This document shows, piece after piece, positions 13,271 through 22,096 of a DNA stretch of 32,597 nt (position 1 is the stretch's first letter; every line of letters starts with the position of its first letter). Under the pieces are notes generated by a model. It ran no database searches and was not told the DNA's origin. It was given only the letters and a program-made list of their open reading frames with translations. Made by a program: the position numbers and the translations under genes. The DNA comes from Myxococcales bacterium (lineage in GTDB: Bacteria > Myxococcota_A > Polyangia > GCA-2747355). The stretch is taken from assembly GCA_020431405.1 (NCBI GenBank), contig JAGQIK010000676.1:1-32597 (forward strand), read 5' to 3'.

Positions 13271-13849
13271 ATGAAAGCAACCATCCATCTCGTGCTCGCC
13301 GTCGCCCTCGTCGCGAGCAGCGCCACCAGCGCCAACGCCGAGAGCTACTACCCCCGCGACTGGGGCGCCGATATCGCGCCGGCTTGCAGCTGCAACTACG
13401 AGTGCAAGGTCTACGGCTATAACTATTGGTGCATCGCCAATCGCTGCATCTGGTCGACCACCAACCAAGGCAAGACGTGCGGCGGCCCCGGTGGCGACCC
13501 TGGCTACCCCATCGAGGGCGGGCCCGCCTACAACGAGGCAGGCACGAGCTACCTCGACTTCGGACCGTCGCCCTACTACGAAGGGGACGACCCGTCACCG
13601 TACTGGGAAGGCAACAGCGGCAGCTTCGAAGACGGCGGCTACTATCCGCCTAGCCCCGATGCCGGCGTCGGCAACGGCAATGGCAATGGCAACGGCTCGA
13701 ACCTCTCCGAGCGTCCCGGCTGCAACGTGGCGCCCGGCGGGTGGCCTTCGCTCGCTTCGCTGATGGTGCTCGCGATGCTGGCGGGACTATGGTGGCTCGG
13801 CCGCCGATCGCAGCGCGCGTGTCAGTCCCAGAGGCGCGTCGAGAAGTAG
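13271..13849 (+). CDS. Secreted Cys-rich protein with MYXO-CTERM-like C-terminus
   Basis: The protein has 192 aa. A Sec signal peptide (cut after ANA, residue 23) leads a cysteine-rich segment (five or more Cys between residues 37 and 75) and a Pro/Gly/Tyr-rich region with a (Gly-Asn) run coded by 13668-13697. The C-terminus has a Gly-Cys (RPGCNVAPGGWPSL), a hydrophobic helix (LMVLAMLAGLWWLG) and an Arg-rich tail, the tripartite layout of MYXO-CTERM sorting signals, whose invariant Cys is processed and lipid-modified for surface display. GGAGG (13261-13265) precedes the ATG. The last 28 bp overlap the convergent cysteine synthase gene. Its function is unknown; a surface structural or adhesive role is inferred. 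Confidence 0.8.
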   Translation: MKATIHLVLAVALVASSATSANAESYYPRDWGADIAPACSCNYECKVYGYNYWCIANRCIWSTTNQGKTCGGPGGDPGYPIEGGPAYNEAGTSYLDFGPSPYYEGDDPSPYWEGNSGSFEDGGYYPPSPDAGVGNGNGNGNGSNLSERPGCNVAPGGWPSLASLMVLAMLAGLWWLGRRSQRACQSQRRVEK

Positions 13850-14796
13850 CGCTCGCCGATGTCGCAGAAGAGCGTGACGATGCGCGCGCCCGGGTTGGCC
13901 TTGGCCGTCTCGACGGCGGCCTTGAGGTACGCCCCAGACGACTGACCGACGAAGATGCCGCGCCGCGCGAGCGCGTTGCAGTAGTCGAAGGCGTCCTCGA
14001 TCGAGACGCGCACTTGCTCGTCGACGACGCGGGTGTCGAGGATCTTGGGCACGATGTCTTCGGGTGACTCGAGCGGCTTGAGGCCTTCGATGCCGGGAAA
14101 CACCTCCGGCAGCACCTGCACGATCTTGATCGAAGGGTCGTGCTCCTTGAGGCGCCTGCCCACGCCGGTGATCGTGCCGCCGGTGCCGATGCCCGAGATG
14201 AAGTGCGTCAGCTCGCCGCCGGTCTGCTCGAGGATCTCGACCGCCGTCTCGTCGTAGTGCGCGCGCCAGTTGCCGTCGTTGGCGTACTGGTCGGGCATGA
14301 AGTACTTGTCGGCGTGCTCCTCGGCGAGCCGATGCGCCTCGCGAAGCGCCGCGTCGTAGCCTTCCAGCGGGTCGGTCTGGATCAGCTTCGCGCCGTGCGC
14401 GAGGATGCGCTTCTTGCGCTCGGCTGACGCGTTGCCAGGCAGAACCAGCGTGACGTCGTAACCCATCATGGCGCCGATCATCGCGTAGGCGATGCCCGCG
14501 TTGCCGCTCGACGAGTCGATGATCGACCGTTCCCGCGTAAGTCGCCCGCGCTCGATCTCTTCGAGCAGCATGCGCCGCACCGGGCGGTCTTTGAGCGAGC
14601 CGCCCGGGTTTGTCCACTCGCACTTGGCGTGCAGCGTGGCGCCGTTGTCGGGCCACGCGTCGAGACCTTCAACCGAGAGCAGGCGCGTGCCGCCGATCAG
14701 CCCCAGCGTGGGGTAGCGCTCGACGTACTTGCGCAGGTTCTCGGGCAGCATGGATGTCGCGCCTTGGCCTCGCCTGAGGGGGATGACAACGTTCAT
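13822..14796 (-). CDS. cysM: Cysteine synthase, CysM-like (PLP enzyme)
   Basis: The protein has 324 aa, a fold-type II PLP enzyme. The Schiff-base Lys69 is in NPGGSLKDRP, the substrate loop is SSSGNAGIAYAM, and the phosphate-binding SGIGTGGTITGVGRRL follows. It makes cysteine from an activated serine and a sulfur donor. Position as third gene after a CysO-like carrier (5-nt gap to the E1 gene) matches the pathway in which CysM joins O-phosphoserine to thiocarboxylated CysO, as known in mycobacteria. O-acetylserine/sulfide cannot be excluded from sequence. The start at 14796 gives a 15-residue leader before Met16, which is an alternative start. The 3' end overlaps the convergent surface-protein gene by 28 bp. 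Confidence 0.9.
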   Translation of the reverse strand: MNVVIPLRRGQGATSMLPENLRKYVERYPTLGLIGGTRLLSVEGLDAWPDNGATLHAKCEWTNPGGSLKDRPVRRMLLEEIERGRLTRERSIIDSSSGNAGIAYAMIGAMMGYDVTLVLPGNASAERKKRILAHGAKLIQTDPLEGYDAALREAHRLAEEHADKYFMPDQYANDGNWRAHYDETAVEILEQTGGELTHFISGIGTGGTITGVGRRLKEHDPSIKIVQVLPEVFPGIEGLKPLESPEDIVPKILDTRVVDEQVRVSIEDAFDYCNALARRGIFVGQSSGAYLKAAVETAKANPGARIVTLFCDIGERYFSTRLWD

Positions 14797-14801
14797 CTAT
14801 T

Positions 14802-15968
14802 TTATCCGTTGGGATTGCTGCAGAAGAATTCGTAGTCGATGAACCCCGGGAACTCTTTGCCGTCGCCGCAGTAGGCGCACTCGGGGTCGCGGCGCAGCTT
14901 GAGCGTGCGAAACTCGTTGTCGAGCGCGTCGTAGTGCACGAGCTTGCCTACCAGCGGCTCGCCAACGCCGAGGATCAGCTTCACCACCTCGACCGCTTCC
15001 ATCACGCCGACCACGCCGGGCAGCACGCCGAGCACGCCGGCGTCGGCGCACGAGGGCGCCAGCTCAGGCGGCGGCGGCTCGGGATACAAGCAGCGGTAGC
15101 AGGGGCCGTGCGGCGGGTGAAAGACCGTCACCTGGCCTTCGAAGCGATAGATGCTGCCGTGCACGTTGGGGATGCCCAGCTTGACGCAGGCGTCGTTGAC
15201 CAGGTAGCGCGTGGGGAAGTTGTCGGTGCCGTCGACGACGATGTCGTAGCCCGAGAAGTACTTCTCGACGTTGCCCGAGTGCAGGCGGTCCTCGTGGGGC
15301 ACGACGTTGATCGTCGGGTTGAGCCCGAGCAGCGTCTTCTTTGCAGACTCGGTCTTGGGCGTGCCGACGCGATCGGCGGTGTGGATGATCTGGCGCTGCA
15401 GGTTGCTCTCGTCGACGACATCGAAGTCGATCACGCCGAGGGTGCCGACACCGGCCGCGGCGAGGTAGAGCGCCGTCGGGGAGCCGAGCCCGCCGGCGCC
15501 GATGCACAGCACCTTCGACTCGAGCAGCTTGATCTGGCCTGCTTCGCCGACCTCGGGGATCGCCAGGTGCCGCTTGTAGCGGTTGCGCTGGTCGGTGGTC
15601 AGCGACTTGGGCTTGAACACCGGGTGGCCCTGCTGCTGCCAGCGCGAAAAGCCGCCCGACATCGAAGACACGTTGGTGTAGCCGAGCCGCTGCAGCGCGT
15701 CGGCCGCGAGCAGCGAGCGCACACCGCCGGCGCAGTAGGCGATGATCGGCGTGTCGCGCTCGGGGATGGCTTGCTCGACGCGCAGCTCGAGGAAGCTCTT
15801 GGGCAGGTGCACTGCGCCGGGGATCAGGCCCGCGTCGACCTCGTCCTTGTCGCGAACGTCGACGATGACGGTGCCGTTGCCCTTGCTGTGGATTTCGCGG
15901 GTCTCGTCGGGCGTGACCTCGCGAACGCGCTGCCGGATGCTGCCCAGCATGTCTTGAACGGTGCCCAT
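14802..15968 (-). CDS. Rhodanese-E1 fusion: sulfur-carrier adenylyl/sulfurtransferase (MoeZ/MoeB/ThiF family)
   Basis: The protein has 388 aa. Residues ~20-120 are a rhodanese domain (active loop AYCAGGVRS, Cys79) that can hold a persulfide. Residues ~130-388 are an E1-like enzyme: ATP motif GAGGLGSPTALYLAAAGVG, Arg finger in NLQRQIIH, the conserved SCADAGVLGVLPG and a zinc site from CYRC and CAYC. It would adenylate the C-terminal Gly of a ubiquitin-like carrier and convert it to a thiocarboxylate. In MoeZ/MOCS3 the rhodanese is C-terminal; here it is N-terminal. The start is 9 nt after the CysO-like gene, whose product is the obvious substrate. Confidence 0.93.
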   Translation of the reverse strand: MGTVQDMLGSIRQRVREVTPDETREIHSKGNGTVIVDVRDKDEVDAGLIPGAVHLPKSFLELRVEQAIPERDTPIIAYCAGGVRSLLAADALQRLGYTNVSSMSGGFSRWQQQGHPVFKPKSLTTDQRNRYKRHLAIPEVGEAGQIKLLESKVLCIGAGGLGSPTALYLAAAGVGTLGVIDFDVVDESNLQRQIIHTADRVGTPKTESAKKTLLGLNPTINVVPHEDRLHSGNVEKYFSGYDIVVDGTDNFPTRYLVNDACVKLGIPNVHGSIYRFEGQVTVFHPPHGPCYRCLYPEPPPPELAPSCADAGVLGVLPGVVGVMEAVEVVKLILGVGEPLVGKLVHYDALDNEFRTLKLRRDPECAYCGDGKEFPGFIDYEFFCSNPNG

Positions 15969-15977
15969 CGGTAGCCT

Positions 15978-16256
15978 CTAGTACGCCCCGCCGGCGATGG
16001 CGGGTACGATGGAGATGACGTCGCTTTCCTTGACCTCGGTGTCGAGCCCGGAGAGGGAGCGCACGTCCTCGTCGTTTACGAACATGTTGACGAAGCGCCG
16101 CAGCTCGCCCGCGTCGTCGCAGATGCGCGCGCGAAAGCCGGCGTGGGCCTCGTCGAGGTTGGCGAGCAGCTCGCGAACCGTCGCGCCGCCGACCTCGACG
16201 GTGCTCTGGCCTTTGACCAGCGGTCTCAGCGGGGTAGGGATGCGTACGTTGGGCAT
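15978..16256 (-). CDS. cysO: CysO/ThiS/MoaD-like sulfur carrier with C-terminal Gly-Gly-Ala-Tyr
   Basis: A 92-aa ubiquitin-fold sulfur carrier. It has the CysO-like core RRFVNMFVNDEDVRSLSGLD and ends AIAGGAY: the diglycine that is adenylated and thiocarboxylated is followed by two extra residues. Carriers with such tails need a JAMM-type peptidase to expose the Gly-Gly, and none is in the window. The start is ATG at 16256 with AGGAG 10 nt upstream, not the longer open frame that runs through the leader. It heads the carrier-E1-cysteine synthase operon, just behind a leader terminator. It probably serves cysteine synthesis and may also donate sulfur to the adjacent TfuA/YcaO thioamidation pair. 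Confidence 0.92.
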   Translation of the reverse strand: MPNVRIPTPLRPLVKGQSTVEVGGATVRELLANLDEAHAGFRARICDDAGELRRFVNMFVNDEDVRSLSGLDTEVKESDVISIVPAIAGGAY

Positions 16257-16280
16257 GGTCTCCGGGCTCCTGAAAAACAA

Positions 16281-16317
16281 AATAAAAAAGCGGCACTCCC
16301 TCGAGGGTGAGTGCCGC
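16281..16317 (-). terminator. Intrinsic terminator / attenuator in the cysO leader
   Basis: On the minus strand a GC-rich hairpin (stem arms GCGGCACTC and GAGTGCCGC, with an inner CCTCGAGG stretch) is followed at once by TTTTTTATT, continuing TTGTTTTT. It ends only 25 nt before the cysO ATG, so it sits inside that operon's leader. It could end transcripts from the RiPP genes and also act as an attenuator. Confidence 0.85.
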
Positions 16318-16387
16318 CGCCTTCGTCTGTCTGCGCTGCGTGAGCTGCTATGGAGCCGCGCGCGGGACAGAGGCTTCGGCCTCGCCC
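16305..16387 (-). promoter_or_regulatory. Candidate antiterminator pairing in the cysO leader
   Basis: The segment GGGCGAGGCCG (16387 to 16377), directly after the poly-Cys codons, can pair with CGGCACTCACCC (16316 to 16305), the 5' part of the terminator hairpin: ten pairs, one mismatch, one bulge. The same segment can instead fold into GAGGC-CGAA-GCCTC (16383 to 16370). These three structures exclude one another, as in ribosome-mediated attenuators. Pairing was judged by eye only. Confidence 0.5.
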
Positions 16388-16428
16388 GAGCAACAACAAC
16401 AACAACAGCAGTCACAGTTCCAGCGCAC
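16348..16428 (-). CDS. Poly-cysteine leader peptide (26 aa)
   Basis: A short frame from GTG (16428) to TAG encodes a peptide beginning MRWNCDCCCCCCCS: a Cys, an Asp, then seven consecutive cysteine codons (16410 to 16390). It is followed by the attenuator-type terminator and the cysO operon. There is no Shine-Dalgarno sequence; a promoter candidate places the transcript start at the GTG, i.e. leaderless translation. Leaderless poly-Cys ORFs are known cysteine-sensing attenuators in mycobacteria. The same frame also stays open upstream to an ATG at 16479 that overlaps the TfuA stop (ATGA) behind a GAGG, giving 43 aa. Either a leader peptide or a coupled small gene; the leader reading is preferred. 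Confidence 0.65.
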   Translation of the reverse strand: MRWNCDCCCCCCCSGEAEASVPRAAP

Positions 16429-16434
16429 GAGATG

Positions 16435-16463
16435 AGTGTTTACTACCAAAAGAGGGCTGTCAA
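16435..16463 (-). promoter_or_regulatory. Promoter candidate for the poly-Cys leader and cysO operon
   Basis: TTGACA (16463 to 16458) matches the -35 consensus exactly. After 17 bp comes AACACT (16440 to 16435) as a weak -10; TAAACA two bases earlier is the alternative. The predicted start falls at about 16428, the GTG of the leader ORF. It lies just after the TfuA stop. Confidence 0.45.
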
Positions 16464-16475
16464 GCAAGAGGGCGA

Positions 16476-17888
16476 TCATCTGACCTCGGCGGCGAAGCGG
16501 CTCGCGTCGTGCTCGTCATCGAAATCGCGGTCGATGGCCTCCCCCAGCGTAGTCGGCAGCACCGGCTCGCGCTCGCCACGCATCACGGCGCGGGCGTCGT
16601 CCGTCACGCCGCACAGCGCGAGGCCGACGTGAAGCCACACCGTCGACGAGATGCGCGGCGCCGCGACCACGTGACCGTGGGCCAGCGCGCGCTCGCGGTA
16701 GCAGCACGAGAGCAGCGCGCCGAGCTCGGCGTCGCTTTCGAGGCCGTGCTCCGCGCGCCACTGGGCAAGCGCGGCACTGTCGAGCAGGCCGCGGGCGAGG
16801 CGAAGCTCGTGCAGAAGCTCTTTCACTTCGACGGGCCGCGGCGTGACGCCCGCCTCGGCGGCGGCGCGGTCGATGGCTCGCAGCAAGCGGGCAGTCAGCT
16901 CGGCGCTCGCGGGCGACGTCGGGCCGAGCGCGCGCAGCCAGCGCTGGTAGCGCGCGACGCCAAACAGCACGCGCTGCGAGGGGGGTAGGCGCGCCACGAG
17001 CGAGCTCGTGCAGCGCTCGAGCTCGTCGAGCGTGCTGCAGTTGTCGGCGCCGGCGAGGTCGGCGACGCAGGCGAGCAGGCGCGCGACGCGCTTGGCTTCG
17101 ACGTAGCGGCGGCCGACGAGCCGCGCCGCTTGCGCCACACGCTCGGCTTCGGGTAGCGCGCTCTCGAAGCGGCGAAAGGGCGCGAGGCTGGCGTGTCGCC
17201 ACAGCTCGCGCAGGTTGCCGGTGCGAGGCACCTGCTGCGCGTGCGCCGGCGTCGCGTTCGCGGCGGTCGCGCGCGCGTCGTCGGCAACACGTCGCAGCGC
17301 TTGCTCGGCGTCGCGGCGCTTGAGCGAGACCCAACGCCGGCGCGCCCAGCGGGCGAAGTCGCTCAGCCCGGCCCGTGCCGCCGCTTGCTCGATGGTGCGC
17401 TGTGGGTAGAAGAGGCGCTTGGCCGCGTCGATCAGCGCCGCCGCTTGGTCGCGCGCGAGCACGCGCTCGTTTACGGCGCTGGCGATGGTGGCGCGCAGGT
17501 CGACCATCGCGTCGCTGCGCGCGTCTCCGCTGGGCGCGTGCACCACGGCGACCTCGTCGTCGTCGCGGAGCTCGCCGGCGGCGTAGCGCCGATAGACCTC
17601 GCCGACACCGATCATGCCGAGCCGATCGAGCTCGCTGGCGCGCAGCGCGCCCATGCTCGCCGCGCCGTAGACGCGCACGCCGCGCTCGATGGCGAGCAGC
17701 AGCTCTTTGTGCCAGACCGAGCCGCTGCGCTCGAAAACGCCGTCGACGAGCAGCAGCGCGCGCGGCTCGAGGCGCAGCGCGAGCAGCACGTCGCCGCAGC
17801 GCGCTGGCGGCAGGCACAGCGCATCGGGCAGCACCGCGCGCACGTCGTCGACGCTCAGTGTCGGGCCGCAGAACACGGCGACGCTCAC
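16476..17888 (-). CDS. TfuA-like thioamidation protein with long C-terminal extension
   Basis: The protein has 470 aa. Residues ~1-130 carry the TfuA core: VFCGPTLSVDDVRAVLP, PPARCGDVLL, LLVDGVFERSGSVWHKELL, GAASMGALRASELDRLGM and a DDEVAVVHAP end. TfuA partners with YcaO for backbone thioamidation; a studied archaeal TfuA hydrolyses thiocarboxylated ThiS using a Ser-Lys pair. Here the Ser of AASMGA and the Lys of WHKE are the candidate residues. The ~340-residue, mostly helical, Arg/Ala-rich C-terminal part is well beyond the core and I do not recognise it. The GTG start overlaps the YcaO stop (GTGA, 17885-17888), so the two are translationally coupled. Confidence 0.9.
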   Translation of the reverse strand: MSVAVFCGPTLSVDDVRAVLPDALCLPPARCGDVLLALRLEPRALLLVDGVFERSGSVWHKELLLAIERGVRVYGAASMGALRASELDRLGMIGVGEVYRRYAAGELRDDDEVAVVHAPSGDARSDAMVDLRATIASAVNERVLARDQAAALIDAAKRLFYPQRTIEQAAARAGLSDFARWARRRWVSLKRRDAEQALRRVADDARATAANATPAHAQQVPRTGNLRELWRHASLAPFRRFESALPEAERVAQAARLVGRRYVEAKRVARLLACVADLAGADNCSTLDELERCTSSLVARLPPSQRVLFGVARYQRWLRALGPTSPASAELTARLLRAIDRAAAEAGVTPRPVEVKELLHELRLARGLLDSAALAQWRAEHGLESDAELGALLSCCYRERALAHGHVVAAPRISSTVWLHVGLALCGVTDDARAVMRGEREPVLPTTLGEAIDRDFDDEHDASRFAAEVR

Positions 17889-18940
17889 GAAAGCGCCTCG
17901 AGGGCGCCTGGCACGAAGACGAAGGCCACCGGCACGCCGACGTCTGCCCGCGTGAGGTCGACGCGCACGACCTGCTCGAGGCCCGCGGCGGCAAGGCGCG
18001 CCACCAGCTCGTCGAGGCCGCGCTCGAAGCTCGGCACGTCGATGCTCTCGGCGCAGGCCGCGAAGGGACGGCCGCCCGTGGGCCGCTGGTCGGCGAGCGC
18101 CAAGCCGCGGCTGACATCGAGGCGCGCGGCGTCGTAGCTCCACGGCTGCATGTCGTCGCGGCTTCCTGCGATCATCGTCAGGCGTGACTGCGCCGCCTCG
18201 GTGATCGCCCGGCAAGCGGCGACGCCACGGTCGAAGTGTGCGCCGTAGCCGGCGAAGCGCGTCAGCTCGCGAAGCTCGGCGCCGCCACCGAGCTCGCAGC
18301 CAAAGGCCGGCACGCCGACCGCGCTCGTCTCCTCCCAGAGCCTCAGCCAGTGACCTGCAACACGCACGCGCTCGCAGAGCTCGGCGGCGGCGCCGTCCAG
18401 GCTGTCGAGCGCGACCTCTCGCGCCGCGCGTTCGTCGACGGAGCGCGCCGCGTGGCGCGCGCTGGCGTCACGCTCGATCACTTCGAGCAGGGCGTGGGCG
18501 CTCGCTTCGGCGAGCGTGTTGCCCGAGGCGAGGCCGTTGGAGGTGTGAAGGTAGGCACGCGCTGCGGGGCGCGGCTCGTCGTCGCGAAGCACGCAGCAAA
18601 GCTCGGGCACCAGCACGGCGCGCCCGTCGGCGAGCGACAGCCCTTCGTGCCATCCCGTCTCGAGCGCGTGCAGGTTCGTAGTGTGCGGGAAGCGGCCCGG
18701 CTTGAGCTGCGTCACGTCGAGCAGCGCGCGGCCGCCGAGAAGCTCGCGCGTGGTGGCGCGCAGGGCCGAGGGCGGCAGCGTCTCGGCGTGCCATAGCTCC
18801 ACCGACTCCATCGCCGCCGAGATGTCGGCCAGCGTCTCGGTGAGCCCCTTGCCTTGCGAGACGCTCAGCGTGCGCGAGAGCGGGCGCACCGCGACGCTGA
18901 CGGGGATGCCGATGTCGTCGAGGCCGGTGATGCGCGCCAC
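17885..18940 (-). CDS. YcaO-type ATP-dependent peptide-modifying enzyme
   Basis: YcaO enzymes phosphorylate a peptide amide oxygen with ATP to make azolines or, with TfuA, thioamides. From the first standard start (GTG 18940) the protein has 351 aa: ARITGLDDIGIPVSVAVRP, LSVSQGKG, MESVELWHAE, the second ATP-site helix ASAHALLEVIERDAS and the C-terminal VDLTRADVGVPVAFVFVPG. It does not end in the Pro-rich tail of azoline-forming YcaOs. The conserved family N-terminus (RLPEQTRAWLWPLLERCGVT) is coded upstream of 18940 in the same frame, back to the precursor stop at 19046, with no ATG, GTG or TTG. A CTG start (19039, 19033 or 19024) or amber readthrough is therefore likely. Confidence 0.92.
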   Translation of the reverse strand: MARITGLDDIGIPVSVAVRPLSRTLSVSQGKGLTETLADISAAMESVELWHAETLPPSALRATTRELLGGRALLDVTQLKPGRFPHTTNLHALETGWHEGLSLADGRAVLVPELCCVLRDDEPRPAARAYLHTSNGLASGNTLAEASAHALLEVIERDASARHAARSVDERAAREVALDSLDGAAAELCERVRVAGHWLRLWEETSAVGVPAFGCELGGGAELRELTRFAGYGAHFDRGVAACRAITEAAQSRLTMIAGSRDDMQPWSYDAARLDVSRGLALADQRPTGGRPFAACAESIDVPSFERGLDELVARLAAAGLEQVVRVDLTRADVGVPVAFVFVPGALEALS

Positions 18941-19045
18941 GCGCGTGACGCCGCAGCGTTCGAGCAGCGGCCATAGCCAGGCGCGCGTCTGTTCGGGCAG
19001 GCGGCTGCGAACGCTGCCGCCCAGGTGATGCAGGCTCAGCGCTCG

Positions 19046-19375
19046 CTAAACCTTGTAGAAGCCGAGGGAGCCGCCGCCGAAGCGCGCCTTGAAGCCAACT
19101 TCGCTGCCGCCGCCGAGGCCGCTGAAGGGTTTGGTTAGGCCGTCTTGGCCGACTAGGCCACTCGATGCGCCGCCGGCCACGCCGGCGAGCAGCTCGTCGG
19201 TGAGCTCGACCGTGTAGCTCGAGAGGTCGTCTGCCGCGCAGTCGAAGCCCTCGTCCTGGGCGAGCTTGGCGATGTCATCGAGGCCGGCTTGCTCGCCGAG
19301 CGCTTCGACCTTCTTCTGCAGGTCGCCGTCGCTGTCGAGCTTTTCGAGAAACGCGATCGCTCCGTCTTTGCTCAT
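19046..19375 (-). CDS. Nif11-type RiPP precursor peptide
   Basis: The protein has 109 aa. Residues 1-69 are a Nif11-like leader: SKDGAIAFLEKLDSDGDLQK, IAKLAQDEGFDCAADDL and the closing LTDELLAGVAGG. Cleavage is expected after Gly69. The 40-residue core (70-109) is rich in Gly and Ser, has no Cys, and contains two related units, GGGSEVGF and GGGSLGF, ending in FYKV. It sits directly upstream of YcaO and TfuA genes, so it is the obvious substrate; with no Cys in the core, backbone thioamides fit better than thiazolines. AAGGAGA precedes the ATG. It begins 45 nt after the aceE stop and may be cotranscribed with it. No export or peptidase gene is near. Confidence 0.88.
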   Translation of the reverse strand: MSKDGAIAFLEKLDSDGDLQKKVEALGEQAGLDDIAKLAQDEGFDCAADDLSSYTVELTDELLAGVAGGASSGLVGQDGLTKPFSGLGGGSEVGFKARFGGGSLGFYKV

Positions 19376-19420
19376 CTTTGTCGTGTCTCCTTGGATCCTC
19401 TTATCCCGATGCGCGCCGGC

Positions 19421-22096
19421 TCAAGCCGTCGCGGGATCCGGCTTGTCGCGGTCGATGCCGAGGTCATCGATGGCCTTGGCCACCTCGGCGCGGTCGATGA
19501 CCTTGCGCGTGGCGAGCGCCTCGAGGGCGGCGACGGCGATGCACTCGGCGTCGATCTCGAAGTGGCGGCGCAGCGCCTGGCGCGTGTCGGAGCGGCCGAA
19601 GCCGTCGGTGCCGAGGCTGGTGAGCTCGATCCACGGCGCGATCTGGTCCGGCACCAGCTTCATGTAGTCGGTGGCGGCGACGATCGGGCCTTCGACGTTG
19701 CCGAGCACCTGCTCGACCTTGGGCACGCGCTGCTCGGCCGTCGGATGCAGCCGGTTGTAGCGCTCGCAGGCGACGGCCTCGCGGCGCAGGCGGTTGTAGC
19801 TGGTGACGCTCCAGACGTCGGCGGTGACGTCGAAGCGCTCGGCCAACAGGTCGCGCGCGCGCCGCACCTCCATCAGGATCGAGCCGCTGCCGAGCAGCTG
19901 CACGTGGCGCTTCTTCTTGGGCGCATCGGCCTTCTCGAAGAGGTAGATGCCGTCGAGGATGCCTTCGCGCACGCCGTCGGGCATCGGCGGCTGCTGGTAG
20001 CTCTCGTTCTGGATCGTCAGGTAGTAGATGACGTTTTCCTGGTCGACGGACATGCGCCGCAGACCCTCGCTGATCAGCACCGCGATCTCGTAGGCGAAGG
20101 CCGGATCGTAGGCCTCCACTGCGGGGTTGGTCGCCGCCAGCACGTGGCTGTGGCCGTCGCAGTGCTGCAGCCCCTCGCCGGTGAGCGTGGTGCGCCCGGC
20201 GGTGGCGCCGAGCAGAAAGCCGCGGCAGCGCTGGTCGCCCGCGGCCCAGACCTGATCGCCGACGCGCTGGAAGCCGAACATGCTGTAGAAGATGTACATC
20301 GGGATCATCGGCTCGCCGAAGTTCGAGTACGAGCTTCCAGCGGCGATGAAGCTAGCCATGGCGCCGGCCTCGCAGATGCCCTCCTCGAGCACCTGGCCGT
20401 CCTTGGCCTCGCGATACGACAGCAGCATGTGCGCGTCGACGGGCTCGTAGAGCTGTCCAACCGACGAGTAGATACCCCACTTGCGAAACAGCGCGTCCAT
20501 GCCGAAGGTGCGCGCCTCGTCGGGGATGATCGGCACGATGCGCGGGCCGATGCTCTCGTGCTGCAAAAGCTGCCCGAGCATGCGCGAGAACGCGCCGGTG
20601 GTGGGCACCTCCTGCGATCCGGAGCCCTTGAGGTAGCGCTTGAACCAGTCGACCTCGGGGGTCGGGATCGAGTAGGCCTTCTCGCGCCGCTCGGGCAGAA
20701 AGCCGCCGAGCGCTTTGCGGCGCTCGACGAGGTACTCGTACTCGCGGCTGCTCTTGTCGAAGCGGATGTAGGGCGGATCGAGCAGCTGCTTGTCGGGAAT
20801 CTCGAGCTCGAGGCGGTCGCGGAAGATCGCCAGCTCCTTGAGGCTGAGCTTCTTTTGCTGGTGCGTCACGTTGCGGCCGGCGATGTCCTCGCCGAGGGTC
20901 CAGCCCTTGACCGTCTTGGCGAGCACCACCGTGGGCTTTTCGGTCTCGCGCACGGCAGCGTGGTAGGCGGCGTAGACCTTGTGGAAGTCGTGGCCGCCGC
21001 GGCGCAGGCGCGCGATGTCGTCGTCGCCCATGTCGCGCACGAGCTTCTTGAGCTTGGGGTGCGTGCCGAAGAAGTGCCGCCGGATGTAGTCGCCGTCCTC
21101 GACGGAGTACTTCTGGAACTGGCCGTCGACGACCTCGCCCATGCGGCGCACGAGCAGGCCGTCCTCGTCGGCTTTGAGCAGCGGGTCCCACTGACGGCCC
21201 CAGATGACCTTGATCACGTTCCAGCCGGCGCCGTGGAAGACGGCCTCGAGCTCCTGGATGATCTTGGCGTTGCCGCGCACCGGGCCGTCGAGGCGCTGAA
21301 GGTTGCAGTTGACGACGAAGATCAGGTTGCCCAGCGCCTCGCGCGAGGCGATCTGGATCGAGCCGAGCGTCTCGGGCTCGTCGGTCTCGCCGTCGCCGAC
21401 GAAGCACCACACGCGCGAGCGCGAGGTGTCGGCGATGCCGCGGTGGTGCAGGTAGCGCGCGAAGCGCGCCTGGTAGATCGCGGCGCAGGGGCCGAGGCCC
21501 ATCGAGACCGTCGGGAACTGCCAGAAGCTTGGCATCAGGTGCGGGTGCGGATAGCTCGACAGGCCCTGGCCGCGCACCACCTCGCGGCGAAAGTGGCTCA
21601 GCTGGTCGTCGCTGATGCGCCCCTCGAGGAACGCGCGCGCGTAGATGCCGGGCGAGGCGTGGCCCTGAAAGAAGACCAGGTCGCCCATCTGGCCGTTGTC
21701 GTAGCCGCGGAAGAAGTGGTGAAAGCCCACCTCGTAGAGCGTCGCGGCCGACGCGTAGGTCGAAAGGTGGCCGCCCAGGCCGGCGAAGCGCTCGTTGCCG
21801 CGCATCACCATCGCCACCGCGTTCCAGCGGATGTAGCGGCGGATGCGCAGCTCGATCTCCTCGTCGCCGGGGTACTCCGGCTCGTCGTCGACGTGGATCG
21901 TGTTGATATATGGCGTCTGGACCAGCGGCGGCAGCTGCACGCCCTCGACGTGCGCGCGCTTGAGCAGCGAGGTCAGGATGAAGTGAGCGCGCTCCATGCC
22001 GTGCGCGTCGACGAGCGCGTCGAAAGAGTCGAGCCACTCCTGCGTCTCGACGGGATCGATATCTTTCAGGTTCTGAGCAAGCTCGGCTTGCATCAT
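19421..22096 (-). CDS. aceE: Pyruvate dehydrogenase E1 component, homodimeric type
   Basis: The 891-aa length matches AceE. It decarboxylates pyruvate with thiamine diphosphate and acetylates the E2 lipoyl group. The TPP-binding region is at about residues 225-265 (CFVGDGETDEPETLG, then NLIFVVNCNLQRLDGPVRGN), the N-terminal H/P-rich substrate loops (GHASPGIYARAF) are present, and the C-terminal TK-C domain ends with EIDAECIAVAALEAL. The gene stands apart from E2 and E3 (about 20 kb away) and on the other strand. Two Met codons open the frame; the second is equally possible. It is followed after 45 nt by the RiPP precursor gene. Confidence 0.96.
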   Translation of the reverse strand: MMQAELAQNLKDIDPVETQEWLDSFDALVDAHGMERAHFILTSLLKRAHVEGVQLPPLVQTPYINTIHVDDEPEYPGDEEIELRIRRYIRWNAVAMVMRGNERFAGLGGHLSTYASAATLYEVGFHHFFRGYDNGQMGDLVFFQGHASPGIYARAFLEGRISDDQLSHFRREVVRGQGLSSYPHPHLMPSFWQFPTVSMGLGPCAAIYQARFARYLHHRGIADTSRSRVWCFVGDGETDEPETLGSIQIASREALGNLIFVVNCNLQRLDGPVRGNAKIIQELEAVFHGAGWNVIKVIWGRQWDPLLKADEDGLLVRRMGEVVDGQFQKYSVEDGDYIRRHFFGTHPKLKKLVRDMGDDDIARLRRGGHDFHKVYAAYHAAVRETEKPTVVLAKTVKGWTLGEDIAGRNVTHQQKKLSLKELAIFRDRLELEIPDKQLLDPPYIRFDKSSREYEYLVERRKALGGFLPERREKAYSIPTPEVDWFKRYLKGSGSQEVPTTGAFSRMLGQLLQHESIGPRIVPIIPDEARTFGMDALFRKWGIYSSVGQLYEPVDAHMLLSYREAKDGQVLEEGICEAGAMASFIAAGSSYSNFGEPMIPMYIFYSMFGFQRVGDQVWAAGDQRCRGFLLGATAGRTTLTGEGLQHCDGHSHVLAATNPAVEAYDPAFAYEIAVLISEGLRRMSVDQENVIYYLTIQNESYQQPPMPDGVREGILDGIYLFEKADAPKKKRHVQLLGSGSILMEVRRARDLLAERFDVTADVWSVTSYNRLRREAVACERYNRLHPTAEQRVPKVEQVLGNVEGPIVAATDYMKLVPDQIAPWIELTSLGTDGFGRSDTRQALRRHFEIDAECIAVAALEALATRKVIDRAEVAKAIDDLGIDRDKPDPATA

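Follow-up and report, generated by a model that had tools for sequence, protein, structure and literature searches.

A predicted poly-cysteine transcription attenuator ahead of a cysO-moeB-cysM operon in a Myxococcales bacterium, with counterparts before sulfur genes in other phyla

Gene content of the locus

The window, by which we mean the whole 32,597-nucleotide stretch of DNA that was analysed, carries a cysO-moeB-cysM operon, the features of which are listed in Table 1 together with those of its leader. The leader lies on the minus strand between tfuA, which ends at 16476, and cysO, which starts at 16256. A short Cys-rich ORF therefore precedes an operon for the same amino acid, as is expected of an attenuator.

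Table 1. Leader, RNA segments and operon genes, in window coordinates
Feature	Position	Strand	Remarks
Alternative ATG	16477..16479	-	43-aa form of the leader; overlaps the tfuA stop (ATGA)
TTGACA, candidate -35	16458..16463	-	sequence reading
Leader peptide ORF, MRWNCDCCCCCCCSGEAEASVPRAAP	16348..16428	-	26 codons, GTG 16428 to TAG 16348
Seven adjacent Cys codons, TGC TGT TGT TGT TGT TGT TGC	16390..16410	-	proposed sensor
Segment 2, GGGCGAGGCCGAAGCCTCTGTC	16366..16387	-	predicted antiterminator 5' strand; self-folding is the alternative
Protector	16332..16347	-	just past the stop codon; in the ribosome-free leader, predicted to pair with the start of the ORF and the Cys run
Antiterminator 3' strand, GACAGACGAAGGCGGCGGCACTCACCC	16305..16331	-	predicted; contains the terminator 5' arm
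Intrinsic terminator, stem-loop 16317-16290 and U6	16284..16317	-	folding
cysO, ThiS/MoaD-like sulfur carrier	15978..16256	-	proposed first regulated gene
moeB/E1	14802..15968	-	N-terminal rhodanese domain
cysM-like cysteine synthase	13822..14796	-	

Immediately upstream of the leader (16476-19375, minus strand) are genes for TfuA, YcaO and a Nif11-type precursor, which, next to the operon of a ThiS-family carrier, probably constitute a thioamide RiPP cluster. Since some thioamide YcaO enzymes take sulfur via ThiS homologues and TfuA (PMC13063428, 2026), CysO could by analogy provide sulfur to this cluster. The C-terminus of CysO reads GGAY, two residues beyond the GG that closes the aligned stretch of its relatives, and such an end would need trimming. 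There is no JAB protease gene within the cysO-moeB-cysM operon; JAB-family genes are present at other sites of the genome (C709 and C253). A distant CysO paralogue of 34% identity (G000:C732:10757-11017) has one in-frame TAG within the matched stretch.

The leader ORF

Read from the minus strand with its GTG start, the leader translates as V(M)RWNCDCCCCCCCSGEAEASVPRAAP followed by the stop. The window contains a single run of seven Cys codons, and 100 dinucleotide shuffles contain none. Control codons of attenuators are typically a rare synonymous codon. TGT is rare in the window genome, with one TGT against 52 TGC in nine ordinary genes, and it accounts for 16 of the 25 Cys codons across the three poly-Cys leaders of that genome. 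TGY repeats alone are not rare in this GC-rich genome, where four in succession give 768 matches compared to 571 for a reversed control. The number of such repeats in the genome is by itself uninformative, and what is not chance is the pairing of the repeat with a terminator.

A weak AACACT is positioned 17 nt past the candidate TTGACA, at 16440-16435 of the minus strand. Together, going by the letters only, the two would set the start of transcription at or beside the GTG at 16428, making the transcript leaderless. A consensus promoter scan gave this candidate no score and it is a weak promoter. The first of two tandem leaders on another contig of the same genome, C509, shows TTGACG-17-CATCAT a few bases ahead of its ATG, and leaderless starts, as in mycobacteria, are possible. 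On transcripts that read through from upstream, translation of the leader could be coupled to that of tfuA via the overlapping ATG.

Terminator and competing RNA structures

The leader stop codon is followed, 30 nt on, by a hairpin composed of GCGGCACTCACC-CTCGA-GGGAGTGCCGC (16317-16290) and then by TTTTTT (16289-16284); the end of the T-tract region is separated by 25 nt from the cysO ATG at 16256. The energy of the hairpin is -22.2 kcal/mol, with a z of -3.6 against shuffles, and none of 200 shuffles equals it. A simple terminator scan did not list the hairpin (16317-16284), probably because a bulge interrupts the stem. An Rfam search of 13700-19500 gave no family up to the gathering score.

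A ribosome placed on the Cys run leads the folding model to predict a 19-pair antiterminator. In this equilibrium treatment of what is really a kinetic process, and with the terminator 3' arm not yet made, the probability of the antiterminator is 0.75 when the ribosome is stalled as opposed to 0.23 when the leader is ribosome-free, and 0.3% of shuffles match the switch in both values. In the model, then, the antiterminator excludes the terminator and is favoured by ribosome stalling. A ribosome parked at the stop codon still leaves the antiterminator at 0.75, so the off state would rest on ribosome release and refolding. Complementarity of the duplex alone is not significant in the window (p 0.13).

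The initial annotation had described a 26-codon ORF with seven adjacent Cys codons, then a strong hairpin with a T-tract, spaced by 30 nt from the ORF and by 25 nt from cysO. Coordinates, description and both distances hold. It had also proposed two alternatives for the segment following the Cys codons, pairing to the terminator 5' arm or folding on itself, with RNA folding as a check; folding agrees, and mutually exclusive pairings are found in silico.

A second locus in the same genome

Contig C509 (L063) carries two tandem poly-Cys ORFs, MSHRFVCCCCCCCPGAVFASGER and MTRTARDLSQHRTTKACACCCCCCCCPCGAVAPRHGPSNGGFG, each with its own terminator. The first gene after them is cysH, which has a PAPS reductase domain; second comes a SUMT-type methylase and third a protein of 759 residues that shares approximately 37% identity over most of its length with a sulfite-reductase-like protein from one of the loci discussed below (L138). 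All three poly-Cys/terminator units of the genome thus precede sulfur assimilation or cysteine synthesis. Modelled in the same way, the first C509 leader has an antiterminator probability of 0.64 with a stalled ribosome and 0.21 without a ribosome, a result reached by 1% of shuffles. For the second (C509_2) the model gives no difference between ribosome states; its antiterminator is unusually stable, none of 300 shuffles being its equal. We note that TGATGGCCTAG is common to both ORF ends (L063 5930-6380) and gives a possible mini-ORF, ATG GCC TAG, across the stop codon.

A scan of 379 genomes of the phylum, which asked for five or more Cys codons together with a GC-rich stem and U6 inside roughly 100 nt, found the run with a terminator only in the window genome, at these two loci, both ahead of sulfur operons. 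The reversed control pattern gave eight matches in four other genomes of the phylum and none in the window genome. A less stringent scan, of the class, gave the same two window-genome loci. Shortening the gap and loosening the T-tract in a scan of the window genome for further regulon members yielded only chance-like matches. The second locus, ahead of cysH, settles much of the matter.

Relatives within the class

The leader is absent at all other cysO loci fetched from the window's class, and the 29 closest cysH orthologues in the class likewise have none, with the exception of one doubtful case (L241). Because the regions upstream of cysO and cysH in the nearest relatives are without it, there is no covariation to be read for the window leader. 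CysO is 63-67% identical to two of the closest class relatives and 33-40% identical to Bacteroidota proteins. The leader therefore does not track the ancestry of cysO; it may have originated independently, or it alone may have been transferred.

The doubtful case, at L241 1142-1297, is a short, Cys-rich ORF that ends in MCCCCICAARVRVSA; it lies roughly 250 nt ahead of cysH, has no strong terminator and is possibly an attenuator of the translation type. Another candidate, genome G010, has an 11-nt string in common with a C509 leader, yet there is no leader-plus-terminator there.

The same architecture in other phyla

In a scan of named genomes, 17 of the 119 matches listed have a poly-Cys unit preceding sulfur genes on the same strand, with leader sequence alone separating the two. 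These 17 come from Bacteroidota, Ignavibacteria, Planctomycetota and Acidobacteriota; genes were named by similarity to query proteins or by reading the translation. Four loci precede cysM-JAB-cysO-moeB (L100, L112, L129 and L171, in Saprospiraceae, Paraflavitalea and another Bacteroidetes genome). Seven in Bacteroidota precede sulfite reductase, with SUMT and cysH next in those stretches that extend far enough (L111, L124, L138, L165, L177, L203 and L210). Others are ahead of cysK (L145, L204, L208) or, with a weak terminator, of metY (L166). One from a Phycisphaerae genome (L135) precedes cysH-cysK-sulfite reductase, and one from a Holophagae genome (L126/L249) precedes cysH and a cysD-like gene. 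Several of the named-genome loci have two poly-Cys units in series, and the L112 genome has a second tandem pair, ahead of a sulfite reductase.

Two further arrangements are of note. In a Flavobacteriales genome (L217/L256) two serial poly-Cys leaders with terminators stand ahead of a peroxiredoxin-like gene, hinting at control of thiol defence. In an Oribacterium genome (L182) a poly-Cys ORF and terminator, MVMRANSSTANMNQACCCCCCCMDIHIAALACR, lie at least some 600 nt upstream of apparent ABC-transporter genes.

Conservation was assessed on the L171 cysM operon, using the best 30 orthologues that 120 genomes of the order Chitinophagales, to which L171 belongs, provided. Of the 30, 20 have four or more successive Cys codons within 500 nt upstream, and 3 more have three in a row. 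The leader peptides vary outside the run and most are then followed by a hairpin and U-tract. Counted on the sense strand, the 14.5 kb of upstream sequence contain 23 runs of four or more Cys codons and 98 kb outside it contain 5; the antisense strand has none in 113 kb. Cys codons that are kept while the rest diverges are thus seen in Chitinophagales, the leader being absent at the cysO loci fetched from the window's class.

Complementarity links the terminator 5' arm to the stretch that follows the Cys codons, with a Fisher p of 6e-13 over 22 Chitinophagales leaders and of 6e-7 over 18 leaders that include those of the window genome and other phyla (one L100 row having a wrong T-tract), values that are too small because the rows are related. 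Pairs that vary keep their complementarity, as in GGTGAG/CTCAC(C), GGTGG/CCAC and GGAGAGG/CCTTTCC.

Proposed mechanism

We hold with considerable confidence that the minus-strand region 16428-16284 senses charged tRNA-Cys and acts as a ribosome-mediated transcription attenuator. We infer that the leader ORF is translated, that ribosomes stall on it, that termination occurs in vivo and that the system responds to cysteine. When cysteine is ample the ribosome would pass the Cys codons and then depart, whereupon the leader would refold with segment 2 tied up, the terminator would form and transcription would halt ahead of cysO. When cysteine is scarce the ribosome would stall at the Cys run and leave segment 2 free; pairing of free segment 2 with the terminator 5' arm would then allow the polymerase to continue into cysO-moeB-cysM.

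That stalling at low Cys-tRNA lets transcription enter cysO-E1-cysM had been put forward in the initial annotation, and the second locus, the other phyla and the Chitinophagales runs support the idea. The test of conservation that it suggested has a divided outcome; the Cys runs are conserved in Chitinophagales and there is no leader at the cysO loci fetched from the class.

Alternative explanations

Is the hairpin a terminator, or is control exerted on translation? Attenuation of the mycobacterial kind, in which the hairpin does not function as a terminator and a stalled ribosome alters a structure that masks the ribosome-binding site of cysO, is the best of the alternatives although we judge it improbable. 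In its favour, the poly-Cys leaders of M. smegmatis have been reported to be translation attenuators (Canestrari et al. 2020, Mol Microbiol, cited via PMC13236596) and the leaderless start predicted here resembles the mycobacterial case. However, a hairpin of -22 kcal/mol with U6 immediately after it is a standard intrinsic terminator, which this explanation would not include. The Shine-Dalgarno region of cysO is outside the hairpin, and a hairpin with a U-tract is likewise present at the genome's other two leaders and in most relatives.

Could the sensor be a chance TGT trinucleotide repeat in a short frame, and the hairpin merely the terminator of the tfuA transcript? TGY repeats are common in the window genome and the relatives have no leader, but among the 379 genomes the repeat and terminator are found together elsewhere only at the window genome's other sulfur operon, and they recur ahead of the same genes in other phyla. 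Coincidence is, on these grounds, very hard to credit. It is just as difficult to accept that the poly-Cys peptide is itself the product, as a metal-binding peptide or a YcaO-TfuA precursor; the YcaO-TfuA pair and Nif11-type precursor are directly upstream and the long form of the leader overlaps the tfuA stop codon, but that pair already has its Nif11 precursor, the cysH locus has the same architecture with no YcaO or TfuA among its Pfam-identified genes, and there is no conservation of the peptide outside the Cys run.

A possible wider cysteine regulon

Beyond transcription attenuation at the window operon, we lean towards the view that poly-Cys leaders with intrinsic terminators make up a widespread, undescribed, ribosome-controlled cysteine regulon, present at least in Bacteroidota, Acidobacteriota, Planctomycetota and one lineage of the window's phylum, arising or spreading independently of the genes and often deployed as two units in series. 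Our literature search, the coverage of which was partial with some leader-peptide surveys outside it, found no paper on a cysteine attenuator in Bacteroidota or myxobacteria. If these readings are right, direct ribosomal sensing of cysteine supply on poly-Cys ORFs recurs in bacteria and is no mycobacterial peculiarity, and such sensing can act on transcription via an intrinsic terminator. A testable sulfur regulon also becomes available in a lineage whose sulfur control has received little study. The combination of poly-Cys run and terminator offers a simple signature for locating sulfur genes of unknown function, and the tandem units of Bacteroidota provide a natural case of serial attenuators.

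Comparison with known systems

Poly-Cys leaders have been predicted ahead of sulfur operons in Mycobacterium, Propionibacterium and Bifidobacterium, with no obvious terminators (Seliverstov et al. 2005, PMC1262725). The window leader resembles the leaderless polycysteine ORFs of mycobacteria in having a short ORF with a Cys run before operons for cysteine or sulfate assimilation, in there being several per genome, and in the likely leaderless start. The mycobacterial precedent invoked in the initial annotation stands as regards poly-Cys leaders at sulfur genes; it does not extend to the mechanism, which the literature describes as translation attenuation, at leaders with no obvious terminators. 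Unlike those leaders, which have no conserved terminator, the window leader has an intrinsic terminator and a predicted antiterminator, and belongs to a different phylum.

The uORFC-8-2 motif upstream of cysS in Rhodobacterales has been reported as a Cys attenuator with a terminator (PMC8632094). The two share Cys codons in a short ORF, an intrinsic terminator and read-through expected on stalling. That motif, however, is a conserved RNA motif of alphaproteobacteria with two tandem Cys codons ahead of a cysteinyl-tRNA synthetase gene, whereas the window has seven Cys codons and cysO; membership of the cysS motif is ruled out by the downstream cysO and the seven codons.

With the trp, leu and his attenuators the window system has in common a leader peptide with many residues of the regulatory amino acid, control codons that are rare, and mutually exclusive antiterminator and terminator. 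It differs in sensing cysteine and in an off state that is less well explained by simple masking by the ribosome. Because the mycobacterial precedent is described as translation attenuation and its leaders are without obvious terminators, the intrinsic terminator places the proposed window mechanism nearer to trp-type attenuation and the Rhodobacterales cysS motif than to the mycobacterial leaders. The principle is classical; the window case joins a poly-Cys sensor to an intrinsic terminator before cysO and cysH operons.
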